From the NCBI RefSeq assembly GCF_003480915.1, contig NZ_QUKD01000003.1:441098-505097 (forward strand): a DNA stretch of 64,000 bases, read 5' to 3'. Each line of letters opens with the position of its first letter. Positions within the stretch are counted from its first letter, which is position 1. This document shows positions 5,067 through 27,844 of the stretch, piece after piece. Made by a program: the position numbers and the translations under genes. The notes beneath the pieces were generated by a model. The model was not told the origin of the DNA, searched no databases, and was given only the letters and a program-made list of their open reading frames with translations. Source of the stretch: Parabacteroides sp. TM07-1AC (GTDB lineage Bacteria; Bacteroidota; Bacteroidia; Bacteroidales; Tannerellaceae).

Positions 5067-5094
5067 TCTTTCATTGTCAATTATCAATTGCCAA

Positions 5095-5535
5095 TTATTC
5101 AATTACCGGTCTGTCGTCCTCTCCGCTTCCGCCGTCCTCTTCTTTCTTTTCGGTTGAAGTGAAGGCGACCAGCTTCTTCGTGTTGCGTAAGGATGCACCG
5201 GGCGTAAAGATCACGCGCGCCCCTTTTACATCTGCCTGGGTGAACGACTTTTTGTCGGCAGCTCCCTTGCTGGAGAGTGAGAGGCGGAAATTACCGAACT
5301 CGCCCAACTGCACGATACGCCCTGCACGAAGTTCCATGTCGAGGATAAAGTTAAGGTTGTCCAACACCGCTTTTACATCCGCACTGGAAACGGTAGATCG
5401 CGCTCCGATCATAATACACAGTGTATCCATGTCGGTGTAACCGTTGTAATCCGGTATCGCGTAAATTTTTTCCTGTGCTGCGCCGCCTTTCAGGTCGGTC
5501 ACTTTTCTTGTTACTAATTTGTAGCCCTGGGCCAT
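5095..5535 (-). CDS. HU-like DNA-binding protein with C-terminal extension (HU-HIG type)
   Basis: 146 aa. The N-terminal about 120 residues have the HU/IHF fold pattern, including a GEFGNFRLSL beta-arm motif. A low-complexity acidic tail ends in EDDRPVIE. A paralogue at 59650-60102 has an almost identical tail. These divergent HU-like proteins are common in Bacteroidales, beside amidases and DUF4248 genes. Their DNA target is unknown; nucleoid or phage-DNA organisation is inferred. The gene leads the leftward cassette and has a TACCTTTG promoter box at 5592-5599. Confidence 0.8.
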   Translation of the reverse strand: MAQGYKLVTRKVTDLKGGAAQEKIYAIPDYNGYTDMDTLCIMIGARSTVSSADVKAVLDNLNFILDMELRAGRIVQLGEFGNFRLSLSSKGAADKKSFTQADVKGARVIFTPGASLRNTKKLVAFTSTEKKEEDGGSGEDDRPVIE

Positions 5536-7434: not shown

Positions 7435-10347
7435 TTATTTTACGATTGCTTTTACTGCAGCTTCGCCTTCAACGGCTACTACAACTACACCTGCAGGAGC
7501 AGCGATTGTAGCTTCAGAAGAAGAAACGACTGTGTTAGCAACCTGCTGGCCAAGTACGTTAGTGATTACAACGTTCTTGCCTTCAGCACCCTTAACGATT
7601 ACGGCACCGTTAGTTGCAACAACTGATACACCTTCTGTTGCGATACCTTCGTTAGCTGTCGGAATTACATTTTCCAATACTTCCAAATCGAAGATTTCTG
7701 CTTCAGCTTCTTCTTTTGTTACAACAGGAATACCGTTGTGGAACTTAACATAACCACGTACTGCTTCATCTTTTACTTCACCTTCGTATTTACCAGCTGG
7801 TATTTCATCATCTTCTGTATAATAAGTAGCCGGAGTATAAAGAGTTTCGATAGTGAATGCATCACTCTTAGTATCTACATAACGGAATGCGAAAGAGCAA
7901 ACTTTGTCAGCAGTATTGTTCAATTCAATCTTATCGCCAGTGCTTGTGATGAACAAAGAGTCTATCACATGTTTAGCCTGAACGAATCCTAAACGATAGT
8001 ATGTATCACCACTATAGTTCTGGAAAGCGCAATCTTTACGACCTGCATTTACAGAATCCACTAAGTTAACCAAATAACGACCGTCGATGAATCCTTCTGT
8101 CGGAATTGCATGTAAGCAATCTTCTTCACCACAGATCGGGCAATACTTACCGGCAGGAACTTTTTCAGCATCTACAGCCAACATGAACTGAGGTCTCCAA
8201 GTACCGAATCCGGCAGCTGTGTCAGCATACATAGCAGGATTCTTTTCTGCATACTGCGGATCTAAGAAGTTCTGGATACCTAAGAAACCTTCGATTGCAT
8301 CGCCCTTAGCATCTTCCAACAGACAACCTGTTTCATACAAAACGTAGTTGTTATCGATGTTACGGAAAATCTTGATTGTATCCAAAGCTTCTGTTGTACC
8401 AACTGAACGATACAAGTCAGAGATTGCGTCAGTGATTACGAACAGGTCATTCTGAACGTTTTCATAAGCATCTACATCACCAGTCAATTCGTTAGCATTG
8501 TGTGCGCCGTACAATTTATCCAAACCACAGAATGCACCATCAGTAGTTGTCAGATATTTATCATCATCTTCTTTAGATGCGAAATCATCGCCTTCTCTCA
8601 AGATGTTAAAGCTTTCGTCGTTCTTGCCTTTCAAGACGATGTTGATCTTAGCATCACCTGTTGCTAACGCCTTCAACTCATAACGTTTGTTTACAGCGTC
8701 ATAAGACAATGCGTTACCAGCCAAATCGGTGATGTTGTAACGGTACATATTCAATGTATCTTCTTTTGTCACTTCTTCGCCGTCTTTGTCTACACCAACA
8801 TACGGAGTGAAATGCTTTATTACAGCCAGGTCACTTTCTTTCACCTGAGTGAAACGGAATTCGATAGCCTCTGCAGCATCTTTAGTCCAAGTAATCTTGT
8901 TGTCTTTGCCTAAAGTCATATAAGCAGTATCATCCAATGCAACCAGCGGAGTACCGATATTGAATGTCTTAGTGATCAACTGGTCTGCAGTGTATTCGCC
9001 ACCGAAGTAACCATTGAATTTGTTATCACCCGGAGTACCTACAGCTACGATTGTATAGTTAATAGAACCGTCTGTATACACATCAGCTTTATCTGTCTTG
9101 CGAAGAGCTGCAATTTCAACAGTATTACCAGATTCACGGTTCATGAATGTAGCACCACCCTGATACAACCACTGTCCTTCCGGCTGATTCAAAGCAACCT
9201 GAGCAACAGGGATGAAGTCTTCACCTTCACAAGCAGGATTGGCAACTTTCTTAGCACCTTCTGCTACACATGTAATGTTCAACAGTTTGTCGCGGAAGAT
9301 AGCATAATCGATCTTGTTGCTTGAACCGAAACGAACCCAAGTGTTGTCTTTTGAGTCTTTATCGCCTGCCGTAGCTATATAATCAGCAGTACCTTCAGTT
9401 CCTTCTACTGCGACTGTCAAATAAGCAGTTCCATCAATAACAGCTACTTCCAATTCGTAGTTTTTGTCTTCACCCAATGCTACAACTTCCAATGGTTCGC
9501 CATCTACAGTAGAAGGTTGAGTAATTCGATAAGTAGCAGCTAAGATTTTACCATCTGCTTTTGCTTTATCATAATCTTTCTTTGTCAAAGCGGCAAACTT
9601 GTAACCTAAAGTTTTTGCGCCAGTTTCCAATTCACCAGACAAAGTACCCCAAGTTTCTTTGGTCAATACGATGTATTTACCGGCTGCATTCTTCAACATC
9701 ATGCCATCAGCTGTAAATTCAGCTTTCAGTTGACCTGCAAATTCATTACCTTTCAAAGAATTGTAAGCTTTGAAGCCTTCCCACTGACCTTTGTTCTTAT
9801 TCCAAACCTGGGCGCCGATAGACATTTCGAATGTCTTTTTGTTGCCGTAATCTATAGCAGGGTTGTTCTCGTTGTCTCCGGGGAATACAACATCAGGAAC
9901 AGCAGTTACATCACAATACCAAGCAGAAGAACTCAAGCCTCCATTAGGTCCAGCATAACCTCCTACTGTATTCTGAAATATCAACTGATCACTATTACCA
10001 TTGAATACATTATAAGTTTTTCCATCAACAGTAATAGCCAATGGTTCACCGCTAACTCTATTAATCAATTGATAACCAACCGGAGTTTCAGTTCCATTCA
10101 CTACTGTTTTGTAAACTTTAATTGTCCACTGGGCATCTTCTCCTTTTGCAGCAGAACAACCATCTGCATTCAAATCCAAGAAAGCAGTACCATCTGTTGC
10201 CGGACTAGCTGTATTCACCTGAATGTAATAATATTGCCCTGCAGTTTTACCTTGAATTGCTTCTGCAATCTTCGCTGCATCTGCCGTGCTGAACAATCCA
10301 CCAGCCAGCAACAAGCCAGCCATAAGCGTAGAAAACTTTTTGTTCAT
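7435..10347 (-). CDS. Large exported surface protein with C-terminal DUF6383-type domain
   Basis: 970 aa with a Sec signal peptide (MNKKFSTLMAGLLLAGG...TADA). The body is acidic and beta-rich, with no enzyme motif that I recognise. It repeats tryptic-like QWTIKVYK / WVRF segments and has one CPICGEEDC cysteine cluster near residue 765. The last about 75 residues (VVATNGAVIVKGAEGK, VVITNVLGQQVA, APAGVVVVAVEG) form the DUF6383-type domain, which has the pattern of a T9SS type-A sorting domain. An identical-style ending begins the partial gene at the right edge. Phase-variable S-layer-like glycoproteins with invertible promoters are known from Parabacteroides distasonis, and this protein fits that description. 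Its promoter appears to lie in the invertible segment at 10423-10629, pointing away from the gene as drawn. Confidence 0.8.
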   Translation of the reverse strand: MNKKFSTLMAGLLLAGGLFSTADAAKIAEAIQGKTAGQYYYIQVNTASPATDGTAFLDLNADGCSAAKGEDAQWTIKVYKTVVNGTETPVGYQLINRVSGEPLAITVDGKTYNVFNGNSDQLIFQNTVGGYAGPNGGLSSSAWYCDVTAVPDVVFPGDNENNPAIDYGNKKTFEMSIGAQVWNKNKGQWEGFKAYNSLKGNEFAGQLKAEFTADGMMLKNAAGKYIVLTKETWGTLSGELETGAKTLGYKFAALTKKDYDKAKADGKILAATYRITQPSTVDGEPLEVVALGEDKNYELEVAVIDGTAYLTVAVEGTEGTADYIATAGDKDSKDNTWVRFGSSNKIDYAIFRDKLLNITCVAEGAKKVANPACEGEDFIPVAQVALNQPEGQWLYQGGATFMNRESGNTVEIAALRKTDKADVYTDGSINYTIVAVGTPGDNKFNGYFGGEYTADQLITKTFNIGTPLVALDDTAYMTLGKDNKITWTKDAAEAIEFRFTQVKESDLAVIKHFTPYVGVDKDGEEVTKEDTLNMYRYNITDLAGNALSYDAVNKRYELKALATGDAKINIVLKGKNDESFNILREGDDFASKEDDDKYLTTTDGAFCGLDKLYGAHNANELTGDVDAYENVQNDLFVITDAISDLYRSVGTTEALDTIKIFRNIDNNYVLYETGCLLEDAKGDAIEGFLGIQNFLDPQYAEKNPAMYADTAAGFGTWRPQFMLAVDAEKVPAGKYCPICGEEDCLHAIPTEGFIDGRYLVNLVDSVNAGRKDCAFQNYSGDTYYRLGFVQAKHVIDSLFITSTGDKIELNNTADKVCSFAFRYVDTKSDAFTIETLYTPATYYTEDDEIPAGKYEGEVKDEAVRGYVKFHNGIPVVTKEEAEAEIFDLEVLENVIPTANEGIATEGVSVVATNGAVIVKGAEGKNVVITNVLGQQVANTVVSSSEATIAAPAGVVVVAVEGEAAVKAIVK

Positions 10348-10422
10348 AAACCTTTAAATTTAATATTAATAATAGTGTTAAAATAGTATCGTAATACGTA
10401 TTTGTTAAAAGGTGTTTAGCAA

Positions 10423-10456
10423 AATGACTAGTTTAAACGACCCTTTTTTCTCGTCA
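10423..10456. repeat. Left arm of the invertible-promoter inverted repeat
   Basis: 34 bp starting AATGACTAG and ending TTCTCGTCA. It is identical at 33 of 34 positions to the reverse complement of 10596-10629, and similarity stops abruptly at both ends. Confidence 0.9.
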
Positions 10457-10595
10457 TTTTTAGGTCAAATTCAAGTTTTATACAGAAAAGCGAAGTTTTT
10501 ATACAAACAATGCTATGTGATTGATAAGAAAGGCTATATATTTGGAAAAATAAATTTGAAAAGAATTGCAAGTTAAAAAACTAGTCGTACCTTTG
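10457..10595 (+). promoter_or_regulatory. Putative invertible segment with an outward-facing promoter
   Basis: 139 bp of AT-rich DNA between the arms. At its right end sits a strong promoter: TTG at 10566-10568, a 19-bp gap, then TACCTTTG at 10588-10595. The -7 box abuts the right arm exactly. In this orientation it fires rightward, away from the DUF6383 gene. After inversion it would fire leftward, with a leader of about 105 nt to the ATG at 10347. I found no TAnnTTTG box facing the gene in the present orientation. Confidence 0.8.
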
Positions 10596-10629
10596 TGACG
10601 AGAAAAAAGGGTCGTTTAAATTAGTCATT
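10596..10629. repeat. Right arm of the invertible-promoter inverted repeat
   Basis: Reverse complement of the left arm with one mismatch (A for G at the ninth position). It starts TGACGAGAAAAAAGGG. Confidence 0.9.
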
Positions 10630-11330
10630 CCGTTTTAACATTTCAAACACTTGTAAAACAAGATTTGTACCACAATAAAGCCGCCTATTTCACCCTAAAT
10701 TTAACATTTACAGCATATTCGGATAAAGATTTGATATACTGCCTATTACCCATTCTTTCATCCGTTTTTTCTTTTTTCAATGTAAACACCTATACGACAA
10801 TCGTTTATATTTCAAAACCTCTCTTCACCCCGACACCCCGCTGCCAAGACCTCTTGATTTCCGACTCATACACCGGAACACGGAAAACATTCGGCCTGGT
10901 TCTTCTTTTCAAACCGGAGCGCCCAGTCGCATTCATAAAAAATTTACAATAACCCCCATTCACCTCCATACCCAATCCGAACGCATTTTAAATTTCTTCC
11001 GAATGAAATTTCATTTTCTCTCGGAAGAAATTTTATTTTCTCCCGCAACCCCTTTTTTCACGCTCCGGAAGACCGGTTCGGAATAAACATAGAAAATAAC
11101 AATAAGAAAATTTACATTCGTTAACAATCGGTCGTATATATATAAAAATCCGTATGGGTACTATATTAAAAAAAGGATAGCCAATAAATGTTAAACTACC
11201 ATTTTAATCCATTGAAATATAAGGTATATACAAAACATATAATTATCTTTGCAATGGAAAGATAACCAATCCGCAACTATGTGATCGATTACCTTATCCA
11301 TATTATTTAATAACCATAAACATTATTTCT
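10630..11330. other. Long AT-rich region without a convincing gene
   Basis: 700 bp between the invertible promoter and the next gene. A 95-codon rightward frame at 10665-10952 has a poor start and atypical composition, so I do not call it. The only structure I see is the 22-bp-period repeat near 10995-11062. The present promoter orientation would transcribe into this stretch. Confidence 0.6.
10995..11062. repeat. 22-bp-period tandem repeat, locus 1
   Basis: About three degenerate units of the type CTTCCGAATGAAATTTCATTTT, CTCTCGGAAGAAATTTTATTTT and CTCCCG... at 22-bp spacing. In reverse complement this resembles the units at 28994-29103. Confidence 0.55.
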
Positions 11331-12083
11331 TTGAAAAAGGAAGAGACGTTAGCAAAGAAACAGGAGACGTTGACCGTCGCTGTTCAAAAAGGAGTAGGCA
11401 TACTCAGTGAAAATGCCAAACAAAGCCTTGCTTGTAAGTCGGAAGGCCATCGATTAATCGACCGGATCAACCACGAAGGAGGCGTGAACGAAACCTTAGC
11501 TCTCGAAATCGAAAGCTATCTCTCACATTGTCGTAGCATATTATCGACTATGGGCAACACCCGAAAACCATTTACCAAACAACTGACGGAGGTACAAAAA
11601 CTATTCGTTTCACTTGAAAATGAGATCGATCCCACGAAAAAGGACAGTCCGGCAAATGAACTGGCAGACCGTCTCAGCGCGTGGAAACTCGCCCGGATAC
11701 GCGAAGCCGAAAAGGAGGAACAGCGTCTGATGGCTAATTTCCAACGCACCGAAAAGCGCCTTGCCGGACGCGAAGACCTGAACGACGCTCAGAAAGCCAC
11801 AGCCCTCAGCCGTGCAGAAAATCGCCTGCAATCCGGATGTGCTATCCTGAAAATGAATGCCATAGCCACCGAACTCATGCCTGTTGCGACTGAACCCGAA
11901 GGTTATATCGACCTGCTGCGCCTATGGTGGCAGGAAATCGGTAGAAACCTGCCCGACAGCGACCTGCAGCGTATCTTCCGCCCGATGTTGTCGTATGCCC
12001 GCAAGCAAGCCCGCAAAAACATCCTTATCGACAGTGTTTACGTAGAATACCGCCCGGTTCCGAAAGGGATCCAGGCGGCATGA
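11331..12083 (+). CDS. Hypothetical phage-associated helical protein (DUF1351-like)
   Basis: 250 aa from a TTG start (no in-frame ATG upstream; a stop lies 15 bp before). The protein is almost entirely helical and charged: an N-terminal KQETLTVAVQKGVGILSE segment, central long helices rich in Glu, Arg and Lys, and a tryptophan-containing C-terminal region. The layout recalls the phage DUF1351 family that accompanies recombination or replication genes, but I cannot confirm membership. It opens a rightward block of five or six genes with phage-replication character. Confidence 0.6.
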   Translation: MKKEETLAKKQETLTVAVQKGVGILSENAKQSLACKSEGHRLIDRINHEGGVNETLALEIESYLSHCRSILSTMGNTRKPFTKQLTEVQKLFVSLENEIDPTKKDSPANELADRLSAWKLARIREAEKEEQRLMANFQRTEKRLAGREDLNDAQKATALSRAENRLQSGCAILKMNAIATELMPVATEPEGYIDLLRLWWQEIGRNLPDSDLQRIFRPMLSYARKQARKNILIDSVYVEYRPVPKGIQAA

Positions 12084-20759: not shown

Positions 20760-21266
20760 ATGACACCTGTAGTAAGCATTATCATGGGCAGTACTTCTGA
20801 TCTGCCCGTAATGGAAAAAGCAGCCAAACTGCTGGACGAGATGGAGATCCCGTTCGAAATGCATGCGTTGTCTGCACACCGCACTCCGGCTGAAGTGGAA
20901 GCTTTTGCCAAAGGAGCCAAAGACCGCGGTATCAAAGTTATTATTGCTGCAGCCGGTATGGCAGCACATTTGTGCGGAGTGATCGCCTCCATGACTACCC
21001 TTCCGGTAATCGGTGTGCCCATCAACTCCACACTCGACGGTATGGATGCCCTGTTGGCTATCGTACAGATGCCTCCGGGAATCCCTGTTGCCACTGTCGG
21101 TATCAACGGAGCATTAAATGCCGGAATCCTGGCCGTTCAGATGCTTGCTGTCGGAGACGAACAACTCCAGGGTAAGCTGGCCGACTACAAGGAAAATCTG
21201 AAGAAAAAGATCGTAAAAGCCAACGAAGAGCTGGCTCAGGTATCTTTTAAATACAAAACAAACTAG
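20760..21266 (+). CDS. purE: N5-carboxyaminoimidazole ribonucleotide mutase
   Basis: 168-aa PurE of the class I type, acting in purine biosynthesis (N5-CAIR to CAIR). Signatures: IIMGSTSDLPVM at the phosphate-binding start, SAHRTP (residues 38-43), GAAGMAAHLCGV-like loop and PINSTLDGMDALLAIVQMP. There is no spacer between gcvH and this gene, so the pair is translationally coupled. Confidence 0.96.
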   Translation: MTPVVSIIMGSTSDLPVMEKAAKLLDEMEIPFEMHALSAHRTPAEVEAFAKGAKDRGIKVIIAAAGMAAHLCGVIASMTTLPVIGVPINSTLDGMDALLAIVQMPPGIPVATVGINGALNAGILAVQMLAVGDEQLQGKLADYKENLKKKIVKANEELAQVSFKYKTN

Positions 21267-21354
21267 TTGACAGTTGACAAGTGACAGTTGACAGATGGGC
21301 TTCACGCTCGGCAAATATGTCAACTGTCAACTGTCAACTGTCAACTGTCAACTG
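21266..21354. repeat. TGTCAAC heptad inverted-repeat element, copy a
   Basis: Left arm GTTGACAGTTGACAAGTGACA (21266-21294 region) and right arm of four TGTCAAC heptads (21318-21354) around a GGGCTTCACGCTCGGC core. It sits between purE and ispG and creates a spurious 22-residue N-terminal extension to ispG. Confidence 0.75.
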
Positions 21355-21360
21355 AAAGAA

Positions 21361-23199
21361 ATGGAACATCTTTTTAACTACAGTCGTCGTAAATCATCTG
21401 TTGTCAATATAGGAAACACGCCGCTGGGAGGCGAAAATCCGATACGTATCCAATCCATGGCCAATGTATCCACGATGGATACCGAAGCAGCTGTCCGCCA
21501 GGCTATCCGTATGATCGAAGCCGGCTGCGAATATGTACGTTTCACCGCACAGGGTGAACGTGAAGCCCGTAACCTGGGCGAGATCCGGAAAGAACTGAAC
21601 AGCCAGGGATACACGACTCCGCTTGTCGCCGATATTCATTTCAACCCCAGGGCCGCCGACGCAGCCGCCGAAGAGGTGGAGAAAGTGCGCATCAACCCCG
21701 GTAACTATGTTGACAAAGTAAAGACATTTGACCTTCTGGAATATACCGACGAAGAATATGCCGCCGAATTGCAGAAGATACGCGACCGTTTTGTCCCTTT
21801 CCTCGATATTTGTAAAAAACACGGCACCGCCATCCGCATTGGCGTAAATCATGGTTCACTGTCCGACCGCATCATGAGCCGGTACGGTGATACTCCGGAA
21901 GGAATGGTTGCTTCCTGCATGGAGTTTCTGCGCATCTGCCGGGATGAGAATTTCCCGGATGTAGTGATCTCCATCAAAGCCTCCAACACGGTCGTCATGG
22001 TACGCACCGTACGTCTGCTTGTCCGCACGATGGACGCAGAAGACATGCACTACCCGCTCCACCTGGGTGTGACCGAAGCCGGTGACGGCGAAGACGGGCG
22101 CATCAAAAGTGCCGTCGGCATCGGTACCCTTCTGACCGACGGGATAGGCGATACGATCCGCGTATCCCTCAGCGAAGATCCCGAAGCGGAAATACCTGTC
22201 GCCCGTAAACTGGCGGACTATATACAGGAACGCCGGGAGCACAGACCGATCATTGCCTCGCCCGCTCCCGGATACGATCCGGTGACAGCCTCACGCCGCA
22301 TCAGCCGTGTGACGGAAGGCATCGGAGGTAATTTCCCTCCCGTCGTTATCTCGGACCGCAGTAACGGCGACTTTGAAATCGACTATTCATCCCTGCCCGA
22401 TTATATCTACATCGGAAAGGAAGATCCGGACAATCTGCCCGAGACATTCCGTCTGCTGGTAGACGCTCATTTCTGGAAAGAACGTCCGAACGCCTATCCT
22501 TACTTCATCGCTTCCGAGATAGAAGAGATGAAAGAACTCAACGCTCCGCTGAAATTCATCCGCTTGACCTACAACGACCTGACGGACCAGACACTGGAGA
22601 TACTGAAACAAGATAAAACTGCCGTAGTAGTCCTGAGCACCCACCATCGGAACGGTGTCGGTTCACAGCGTGCCGCCATGCACAAGCTGCTGGCTGCCGG
22701 TTGCGATATCCCCGTCATCCTGCACCGCGACTATCACGAAACAGACAAGGAGTCTTTACAGCTTAAAGCGGGGGCAGACTTCGGCACCTTGTTGCTCGAC
22801 GGCTTCGGCGACGGTATCATGATTCATAATCATGAGCTTGAAGCTCCTGTTATCGACAACTATATGTTCGGTATCCTACAGGCAACCCGTTCACGCATCA
22901 GCAAGACGGAATATATCTCCTGCCCGAGTTGCGGACGTACACTCTACGACCTGCAGACGACCATTGCCCGCATCAAGGAAGCGACCTCGCATTTGAAAGG
23001 GCTGAAGATCGGCATCATGGGCTGTATTGTAAACGGCCCGGGCGAAATGGCAGATGCCGATTACGGGTATGTCGGTGCCGGACGCGGACAGATCAGCCTG
23101 TATAAAGGCAAGGAGTGCGTATTGAAAAACATACCCGAAGAAGATGCTGTAGAACGTTTAGTTCAGTTAATAAAAGAGAACGGAGACTGGATTAATTGA
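21361..23199 (+). CDS. ispG: 4-hydroxy-3-methylbut-2-en-1-yl diphosphate synthase
   Basis: 612-aa IspG/GcpE of the long, three-domain type seen in Bacteroidetes, chlamydiae and plants. It converts MEcPP to HMBPP in the non-mevalonate isoprenoid pathway. The [4Fe-4S] ligands are Cys521 and Cys524 (CPSCGRT) and Cys555 (MGCIVNGPGE) with Glu562. The start at 21361 (MEHLFNYSRRKS) is chosen because upstream codons are encoded by the TGTCAAC repeat. Part of a housekeeping run from gcvH to the EnvC-like gene. Confidence 0.95.
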   Translation: MEHLFNYSRRKSSVVNIGNTPLGGENPIRIQSMANVSTMDTEAAVRQAIRMIEAGCEYVRFTAQGEREARNLGEIRKELNSQGYTTPLVADIHFNPRAADAAAEEVEKVRINPGNYVDKVKTFDLLEYTDEEYAAELQKIRDRFVPFLDICKKHGTAIRIGVNHGSLSDRIMSRYGDTPEGMVASCMEFLRICRDENFPDVVISIKASNTVVMVRTVRLLVRTMDAEDMHYPLHLGVTEAGDGEDGRIKSAVGIGTLLTDGIGDTIRVSLSEDPEAEIPVARKLADYIQERREHRPIIASPAPGYDPVTASRRISRVTEGIGGNFPPVVISDRSNGDFEIDYSSLPDYIYIGKEDPDNLPETFRLLVDAHFWKERPNAYPYFIASEIEEMKELNAPLKFIRLTYNDLTDQTLEILKQDKTAVVVLSTHHRNGVGSQRAAMHKLLAAGCDIPVILHRDYHETDKESLQLKAGADFGTLLLDGFGDGIMIHNHELEAPVIDNYMFGILQATRSRISKTEYISCPSCGRTLYDLQTTIARIKEATSHLKGLKIGIMGCIVNGPGEMADADYGYVGAGRGQISLYKGKECVLKNIPEEDAVERLVQLIKENGDWIN

Positions 23200-23290
23200 C
23201 AGTTGACAGATGACAGATAAGAAAAGGAGTAGTTAACAATATATAGCAAGCTAAAACAACTGTCAACTGTCACTTGTCAACTATCAACTT
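23198..23290. repeat. TGTCAAC heptad inverted-repeat element, copy b
   Basis: TTGACAGTTGACAGATGACAG at the left and CAACTGTCAACTGTCACTTG at the right, with a less conserved centre. The right arm supplies the -33 TTG of the dut promoter. Confidence 0.7.
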
Positions 23291-27689: not shown

Positions 27690-27691
27690 GC

Positions 27692-27834
27692 AGTTGACTG
27701 TTGACAGAGGACAGTTGACAGTTGACAGTTAGGCTTCGCATTCGGCCCCCCCAAAAATATTAAACCTAAATAACCGCCTCTACATTCATTGCGGATAATA
27801 ACTGTCAACTGTCACTTGTCAACTGTCAACTGAA
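27692..27834. repeat. TGTCAAC heptad inverted-repeat element, copy c
   Basis: Left GTTGACTGTTGACAG plus CAGTTGACAGTTGACAGTT, core GGCTTCGCATTCGGCC, right AACTGTCAACTGTCACTTG and TGTCAACTGTCAACTG. Same organisation as copy a. Confidence 0.75.
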
Positions 27835-27844
27835 AAAAGTTTCC

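Follow-up and report, generated by a model that had tools for sequence, protein, structure and literature searches.

Organisation of the locus

The window, that is the whole stretch of 64,000 nucleotides analysed here, carries on its minus strand a large gene for a protein ending in a DUF6383 domain and, in front of the start codon, a promoter that is enclosed by two inverted repeats and reads in the opposite direction (Table 1). The repeats are 34 nt each, lie 139 nt apart and are complementary at 33 of 34 positions (97%), with the sole mismatch at arm position 9, and the complementarity stops sharply on both sides; the inverted-repeat coordinates and the match boundaries bear out the first-pass annotation in all these particulars. 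A weight matrix built from the site family described below gives the window arms scores of 42.0 and 38.9, and these two alone reach a score of at least 8 in the 64-kb window, the best score in one base-shuffled copy of the window being -12. Since the 75 pattern matches (both strands) from which the matrix was made include the window's two arms, independent support for the arms comes from their recurrence in other genomes.

The promoter is of the Bacteroidetes type, and the final base of its -7 box directly abuts the right arm. That it ends there and faces away from the gene had been remarked before and is confirmed, as is the lack of a gene-facing promoter: TAnnTTTG is absent from the gene's strand between 10300 and 11331 with the segment as drawn. 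When the segment is turned round, three TAnnTTTG appear on this strand in the same interval, and the TTTG of the promoter comes to stand about 110 nt ahead of the ATG at 10347, close to the earlier estimate of about 105. Inverted repeats flanking a promoter beside a gene, as an invertible promoter has them, are what we find at this locus, which supports its reading as a putative invertible promoter in front of a DUF6383 surface-protein gene, drawn OFF; judging from the sequence, the segment probably flips and thereby switches the large surface protein on.

Table 1. Features of the switch locus (positions in the window) and, in the last row, of the element found before mpi in relatives
Feature	Position	Strand	Remarks
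Surface-protein gene (controlled gene)	7435..10347	-	970 aa; intact frame; signal-peptide-like start (by eye)
DUF6383 (PF19910) C-terminal domain	7441..7662	-	residues 896-969, E 1.6e-27
Leader between left arm and ATG	10348..10422	-	part of it is conserved upstream of many surface-protein genes in the genus
Left arm	10423..10456	.	holds putative 32-bp dyad recombination site 10425-10456 (TGACTAGTTTAAACG-AC-CCTTTTTTCTCGTCA)
Segment between arms, putatively invertible	10457..10595	.	139 bp; homologous segment inverted in L216 vs L139 and L115
Bacteroidetes-type promoter TTG-N19-TACCTTTG	10566..10595	+	TTG at 10566, -7 box 10588-10595; points away from surface-protein gene
Right arm	10596..10629	.	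holds 32-bp dyad site in inverted orientation, 10596-10627; same two central bases as in left arm
Divergent neighbour gene	11331..12083	+	own -7-like element at 11244; syntenic with L221; outside the switch
Element upstream of mpi	L223:5792, L224:6024, L225:5687		about 90 nt before mpi start codon

The identity of the C-terminal domain, already named in the first-pass annotation, was verified by the PF19910 match. Among 7997 candidates scored, 147 relatives of the protein were found at E <=0.001 (120 of the 147 are listed), and three homologues are 82-89% identical to it. In a set of 79 loci from named genomes, which come from the best 80 of 91 relatives, the closest full-length relative is 53% identical and belongs to an uncultured Parabacteroides (L045); 78 of these loci are labelled Parabacteroides and the remaining one (L055) Clostridia. 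The predicted structure is of middling confidence (pLDDT 64.7) and largely beta, and residues ~442-641 of the model match beta-trefoils, a predicted likeness that implies no function, as a shared fold shows none. Weak matches to TIGR04183 occur in 5 of 19 aligned proteins (best E 0.082) and to PF18962 in one of them (E 5), the window protein matching neither, and a relation of DUF6383 to the type IX sorting domain is weakly suggested. The window locus has a DUF6383-ending protein behind a putative invertible promoter, the combination that marks the S-layer-like glycoprotein family of Parabacteroides. We use the label surface protein by analogy, from the company that the family keeps and from the precedent of P. 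distasonis, whose published glycoproteins are reportedly marked by DUF6383.

In other parts of the window CAGTTGA-type repeats form inverted arrays (21265-21354, 23194-23275 and 27691-27840), and short matches to the 21.3-kb copy occur in many places in relatives.

A dyad site shared across the genus

Aligned sites give a 32-bp dyad, TGACTAGAAAAAACG-NN-CGTTTTTTCTAGTCA, and each window arm is one such site. The earlier suggestion that the arm sequence may be new is to be narrowed, since the dyad core of the arm recurs far outside this locus: sites with <=2 mismatches to the dyad occur in 21 of 38 genomes of the genus, and the reversed dyad pattern, taken as a control, has one match in each of 3 of the 38. 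The counts in the three richest genomes are 50 (G002), 55 (G003) and 48 (G038), with 23-28 pairs in each. The inner part of the arm, with <=1 mismatch on both strands, is matched 51 times in G002, 50 times in G003 and 6-8 times in G004, G005 and G007, with 0 matches in G001, G006 and G008; the reversed inner-arm pattern has 0 matches in all eight genomes. The 26-nt arm core is found again, with 20 or more matching positions, in 24 of the 79 relative loci.

The gcpE-like gene of the window has 83-84% DNA identity to those of G003, G038, G002 and G023. G003 contains loci labelled P. gordonii and G002 loci labelled P. goldsteinii, and on sequence grounds the window strain is apparently an unsampled species of this clade.

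A number of contigs start or end within ~80 nt of a site (G002:C56, G002:C77, G004:C15, G004:C26 and, in G009, C73, C74, C78, C80, C102 and C118), which is what one would see if the assembly were interrupted by mixed orientations or by repeats. At L146:5967-6349 three sites stand in a row before one surface-protein gene, the first two being direct repeats, possibly a double switch or a deletion-prone array. Invertible segments were also seen near genes for DRPVIE-ending proteins (L111, L132, L133, L137, L143), and others precede genes that we named by eye: sigma-factor-like (L124, L157), nucleotide-sugar epimerase-like (L135, L154, L207) and SusC-like (L152).

Orientation of the switches

We read 101 site pairs in the window and nine genomes, 73 before surface-protein genes and 28 before other or no clear genes. 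Surface-protein status was assigned from motifs at the start or the end of the reading frame and not by HMM, and the low site score accepted for pairs (>=2) means that a few of the weak partner sites may be spurious. For G002, G003, G038 and G012 the reading covered all or nearly all listed sites, and for the other genomes part of them; the direct-repeat pair L146:5967-6144, one-site loci such as L156, L161, L251 and L253, and L248, where no site was found, stand outside the counts. Among the 73 surface-protein pairs the promoter points away from the gene in 70 (OFF; for L138 this is called from the -7 box by itself) and towards it in three (ON: L162, L168 and L216). By genome the OFF/ON counts are 19/0 (G003), 16/0 (G002), 17/1 (G038), 7/0 (G012), 4/0 (G016), 3/0 (G017), 2/1 (G007), 1/0 (G005), 0/1 (G004) and 1/0 (window). 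OFF is the rule in the assemblies read, and the window locus, for which the OFF orientation proposed before is borne out by a plus-strand promoter and a minus-strand gene, follows it. A rule of one ON switch per genome is unsupported, as 0 of 42 surface-protein switches are ON in G002, G003 and G012. The architecture is rather uniform: in 53 of the 73 pairs the -7 box and the arm are 0-2 nt apart (0 in the window), and the median distance from arm to ATG is 79 nt (77 in the window).

At one homologous locus both states are present in different genomes. L216 of G038 (ON) and L139 of G002 (OFF) share an alignment of 5,585 nt (94.8%) on one strand, which spans the switch, and another of 2,807 nt (81.9%) in the same direction further out. 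The segment of L216, at 5084-5278, aligns to the opposite strand, at 93.3% over 195 nt, and this match stops at the arms. Compared with L115 of G003 (OFF), L216 likewise has collinear flanks and a segment on the opposite strand (87.2% over 196 nt). The segment between the arms is thus inverted, a difference observed in a comparison of genomes and at a single locus. The counterpart of the window locus itself, L221 of G038, is syntenic (82-89% for the majority of flank pieces, 75% for the switch) and is also OFF.

Crossover point and candidate enzyme

Strand exchange by serine recombinases takes place across 2 bp, and the bases there must match. The two central bases of the dyad vary between loci and are equal within the pair in 93 of 93 pairs with both sites scored, a set outside which eight G012 pairs stand (inverted-repeat search; L239 by eye); a serine recombinase with a 2-bp crossover should leave this pattern. 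When the pairs were shuffled 5,000 times, agreement had a mean of 26.0 and a maximum of 38. Seven different dinucleotides are in use as centres, and non-palindromic centres agree in 55 of 55 pairs. The loci share ancestry, and 93 of 93 is not 93 independent events; we take it as supportive and not as a formal probability. In the first 57 pairs (L110-L169 and the window) both central positions agree in every pair, the agreement between loci being 0.42 and 0.67, and in the outer half-site the agreement within pairs is near expectation (largest excess 0.10, at position 9). In the same 57 pairs agreement at positions 18, 22, 25 and 27 of the inner half-site exceeds expectation by 0.18-0.46. The 2-bp crossover pattern and the dyad favour a serine, Mpi-like recombinase for this predicted site over a tyrosine, Tsr-like one.

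The model NF009949 ("master DNA invertase Mpi family serine-type recombinase") has one protein above its cut-off of 272 bits in each of the eight genomes first examined (306-331 bits), and two other resolvases scored with it reached 61 and 64 bits. Of the 38 genomes of the genus, 31 hold an Mpi equivalog above cut-off. In these 38 the occurrence of sites is not associated with that of full-length Mpi (18/3/13/4, Fisher p 0.68): 13 have Mpi and no site by the dyad pattern, and three (G023, G029, G031) have sites, with Mpi in pieces or as a below-cut-off relative. Mpi-like paralogues below the cut-off occur in the same genomes as well, for example at 180-201 bits in G002, G003 and G038, and any of them could be the enzyme. 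A Pfam scan of 20 window proteins, which cover part of the window's ORFs, found no resolvase.

In B. fragilis Mpi is a serine recombinase that inverts 13 regions, according to the accessible parts of PMC5903667 and PMC4747536, and its repeats read ARACGTTCGTN in the accessible part of PMC8375218. The core of our site family, AAACGNNCGTTT, is close to this motif; the window site, AAACG-AC-CCTTT, matches it in part, its half-site CCTTT departing from it. The enzyme is likely to be Mpi, the master invertase of B. fragilis.

A single element resembling the Mpi site (Table 1) precedes the mpi start by ~90 nt in 11 of the 15 genomes that were read, or in 11 of 14 if the genomes caught by a second script are taken. 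Only in G002, G003 and G038 does its score reach that of a full site, and we propose it as a candidate feedback operator.

Discussion

From our analysis we regard it as very probable that the locus is an invertible promoter switch worked by an Mpi-type enzyme. An Mpi-type serine recombinase would bind the two dyad sites, cut both at the central AC dinucleotide, exchange strands and so invert the segment. As drawn, the promoter would fire away from the surface-protein gene, and after inversion towards it; judged by the distance to the -7 box, ON transcription would begin within the arm and continue for ~100 nt across arm and leader to the ATG. With about two dozen switches per genome sharing the site, cells could differ in the surface protein they wear. 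We infer that the window strain would carry mpi, that Mpi would be the enzyme and serve all these sites, and that the window locus would flip and be transcribed accordingly.

The strongest competitor, which overlaps in part with the reading just given and which we consider rather unlikely, keeps the same invertible promoter and has it flipped by an Mpi paralogue or another recombinase in place of the master Mpi. It gains from the several NF009949-like proteins below cut-off, from the lack of correlation between sites and full-length Mpi over the genus, from a tyrosine recombinase gene said to lie upstream of P. distasonis capsule loci in the accessible part of PMC8400631, and from another repeat, GCTACTYRGNRAGTAGC, described in that of PMC12118408; however, the 2-bp crossover pattern and the dyad favour the serine family, the core resembles the B. 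fragilis Mpi repeat, and most genomes hold a full Mpi equivalog. A dead switch, inverted once and now locked OFF in the window strain, would fit the OFF state of nearly all surface-protein switches, the syntenic L221 included, and the fact that no ON form of the window locus was seen, but we hold it to be quite improbable, as the arms of the window locus match at 33 of 34 positions and have equal crossover bases, its promoter and reading frame are intact, and fossil sites should drift. A third reading, with a rightward transcript as the promoter's target and with repeats that arose by chance or are structural, deserves hardly any credence: the promoter does point right as drawn, but ~700 nt downstream hold no ORF of >=100 aa on that strand, the next gene has its own -7-like element, the arm-promoter unit recurs before 73 surface-protein genes (window included), and the segment is inverted at the homologous locus.

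The Mpi-type switch so preferred has close parallels. Fletcher et al. 2007 reportedly described phase-variable S-layer-like glycoprotein switches in Parabacteroides distasonis, with promoter inversion before a surface-protein family, as is probable for the window. G012, which we take to be P. distasonis ATCC 8503, has the same kind of dyad core in front of seven genes whose products have DUF6383-type ends (by motif, not HMM), all OFF. The precedent invoked in the first-pass annotation holds. The window differs in belonging to another, apparently unsampled species and in its AC centre and CCTTT half-site, and G012 in arms with another outer sequence (CGACTAG...). The accessible parts of PMC8400631 and PMC10773633 cite Fletcher et al. 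2007.

The second parallel is the Mpi regulon of B. fragilis, in which the accessible parts of PMC5903667, PMC4747536 and PMC8375218 place one serine recombinase, many scattered promoter segments and an ARACGTTCGTN-like repeat. It comprises at least 13 regions, seven before capsule loci (PMC5903667 and PMC4747536, same parts), whereas the pairs in G002, G003 and G038 stand mostly before surface-protein genes. In the Bacteroides S-layer switches (B. thetaiotaomicron by context) of the accessible part of PMC12118408, S-layer-type genes lie behind invertible promoters like the putative one of the window, but the repeat is CCGTTACCTABVRAGTAAC beside site-specific integrase genes; the site is different and the recombinase probably too. 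The kind of switch is already known, and the window locus is one of a large family in the genus. The B. fragilis regulon itself was reportedly set out by Coyne et al. 2003.

In the open literature we found no description of the dyad site across P. goldsteinii and P. gordonii, a search that leaves subscription literature largely uncovered, and the accessible parts of PMC3090145, PMC10939037, PMC12632263, PMC10773633, PMC9409006 and PMC8748976 do not describe it; the consensus may well be in print already. Novelty may lie in the scale, in the two-base address, in the bias towards OFF and in the element upstream of mpi. We may tentatively suggest, as a possibility we would sooner doubt than assert, that Parabacteroides Mpi runs a genus-wide surface-coat regulon of about two dozen switches per genome, in which the crossover bases are a locus address limiting recombination between loci, assemblies are strongly OFF-biased, and the degenerate unpaired site upstream of mpi is a feedback operator.

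Switching of the surface coat is regarded as the means by which gut Bacteroidales cope with phages and with immune pressure. With a clear site of recognition, such switches become callable from sequence across Parabacteroides, an ON/OFF census of assemblies becomes possible and the enzyme to test is indicated, and the window locus adds one switch in an apparently unsampled species.
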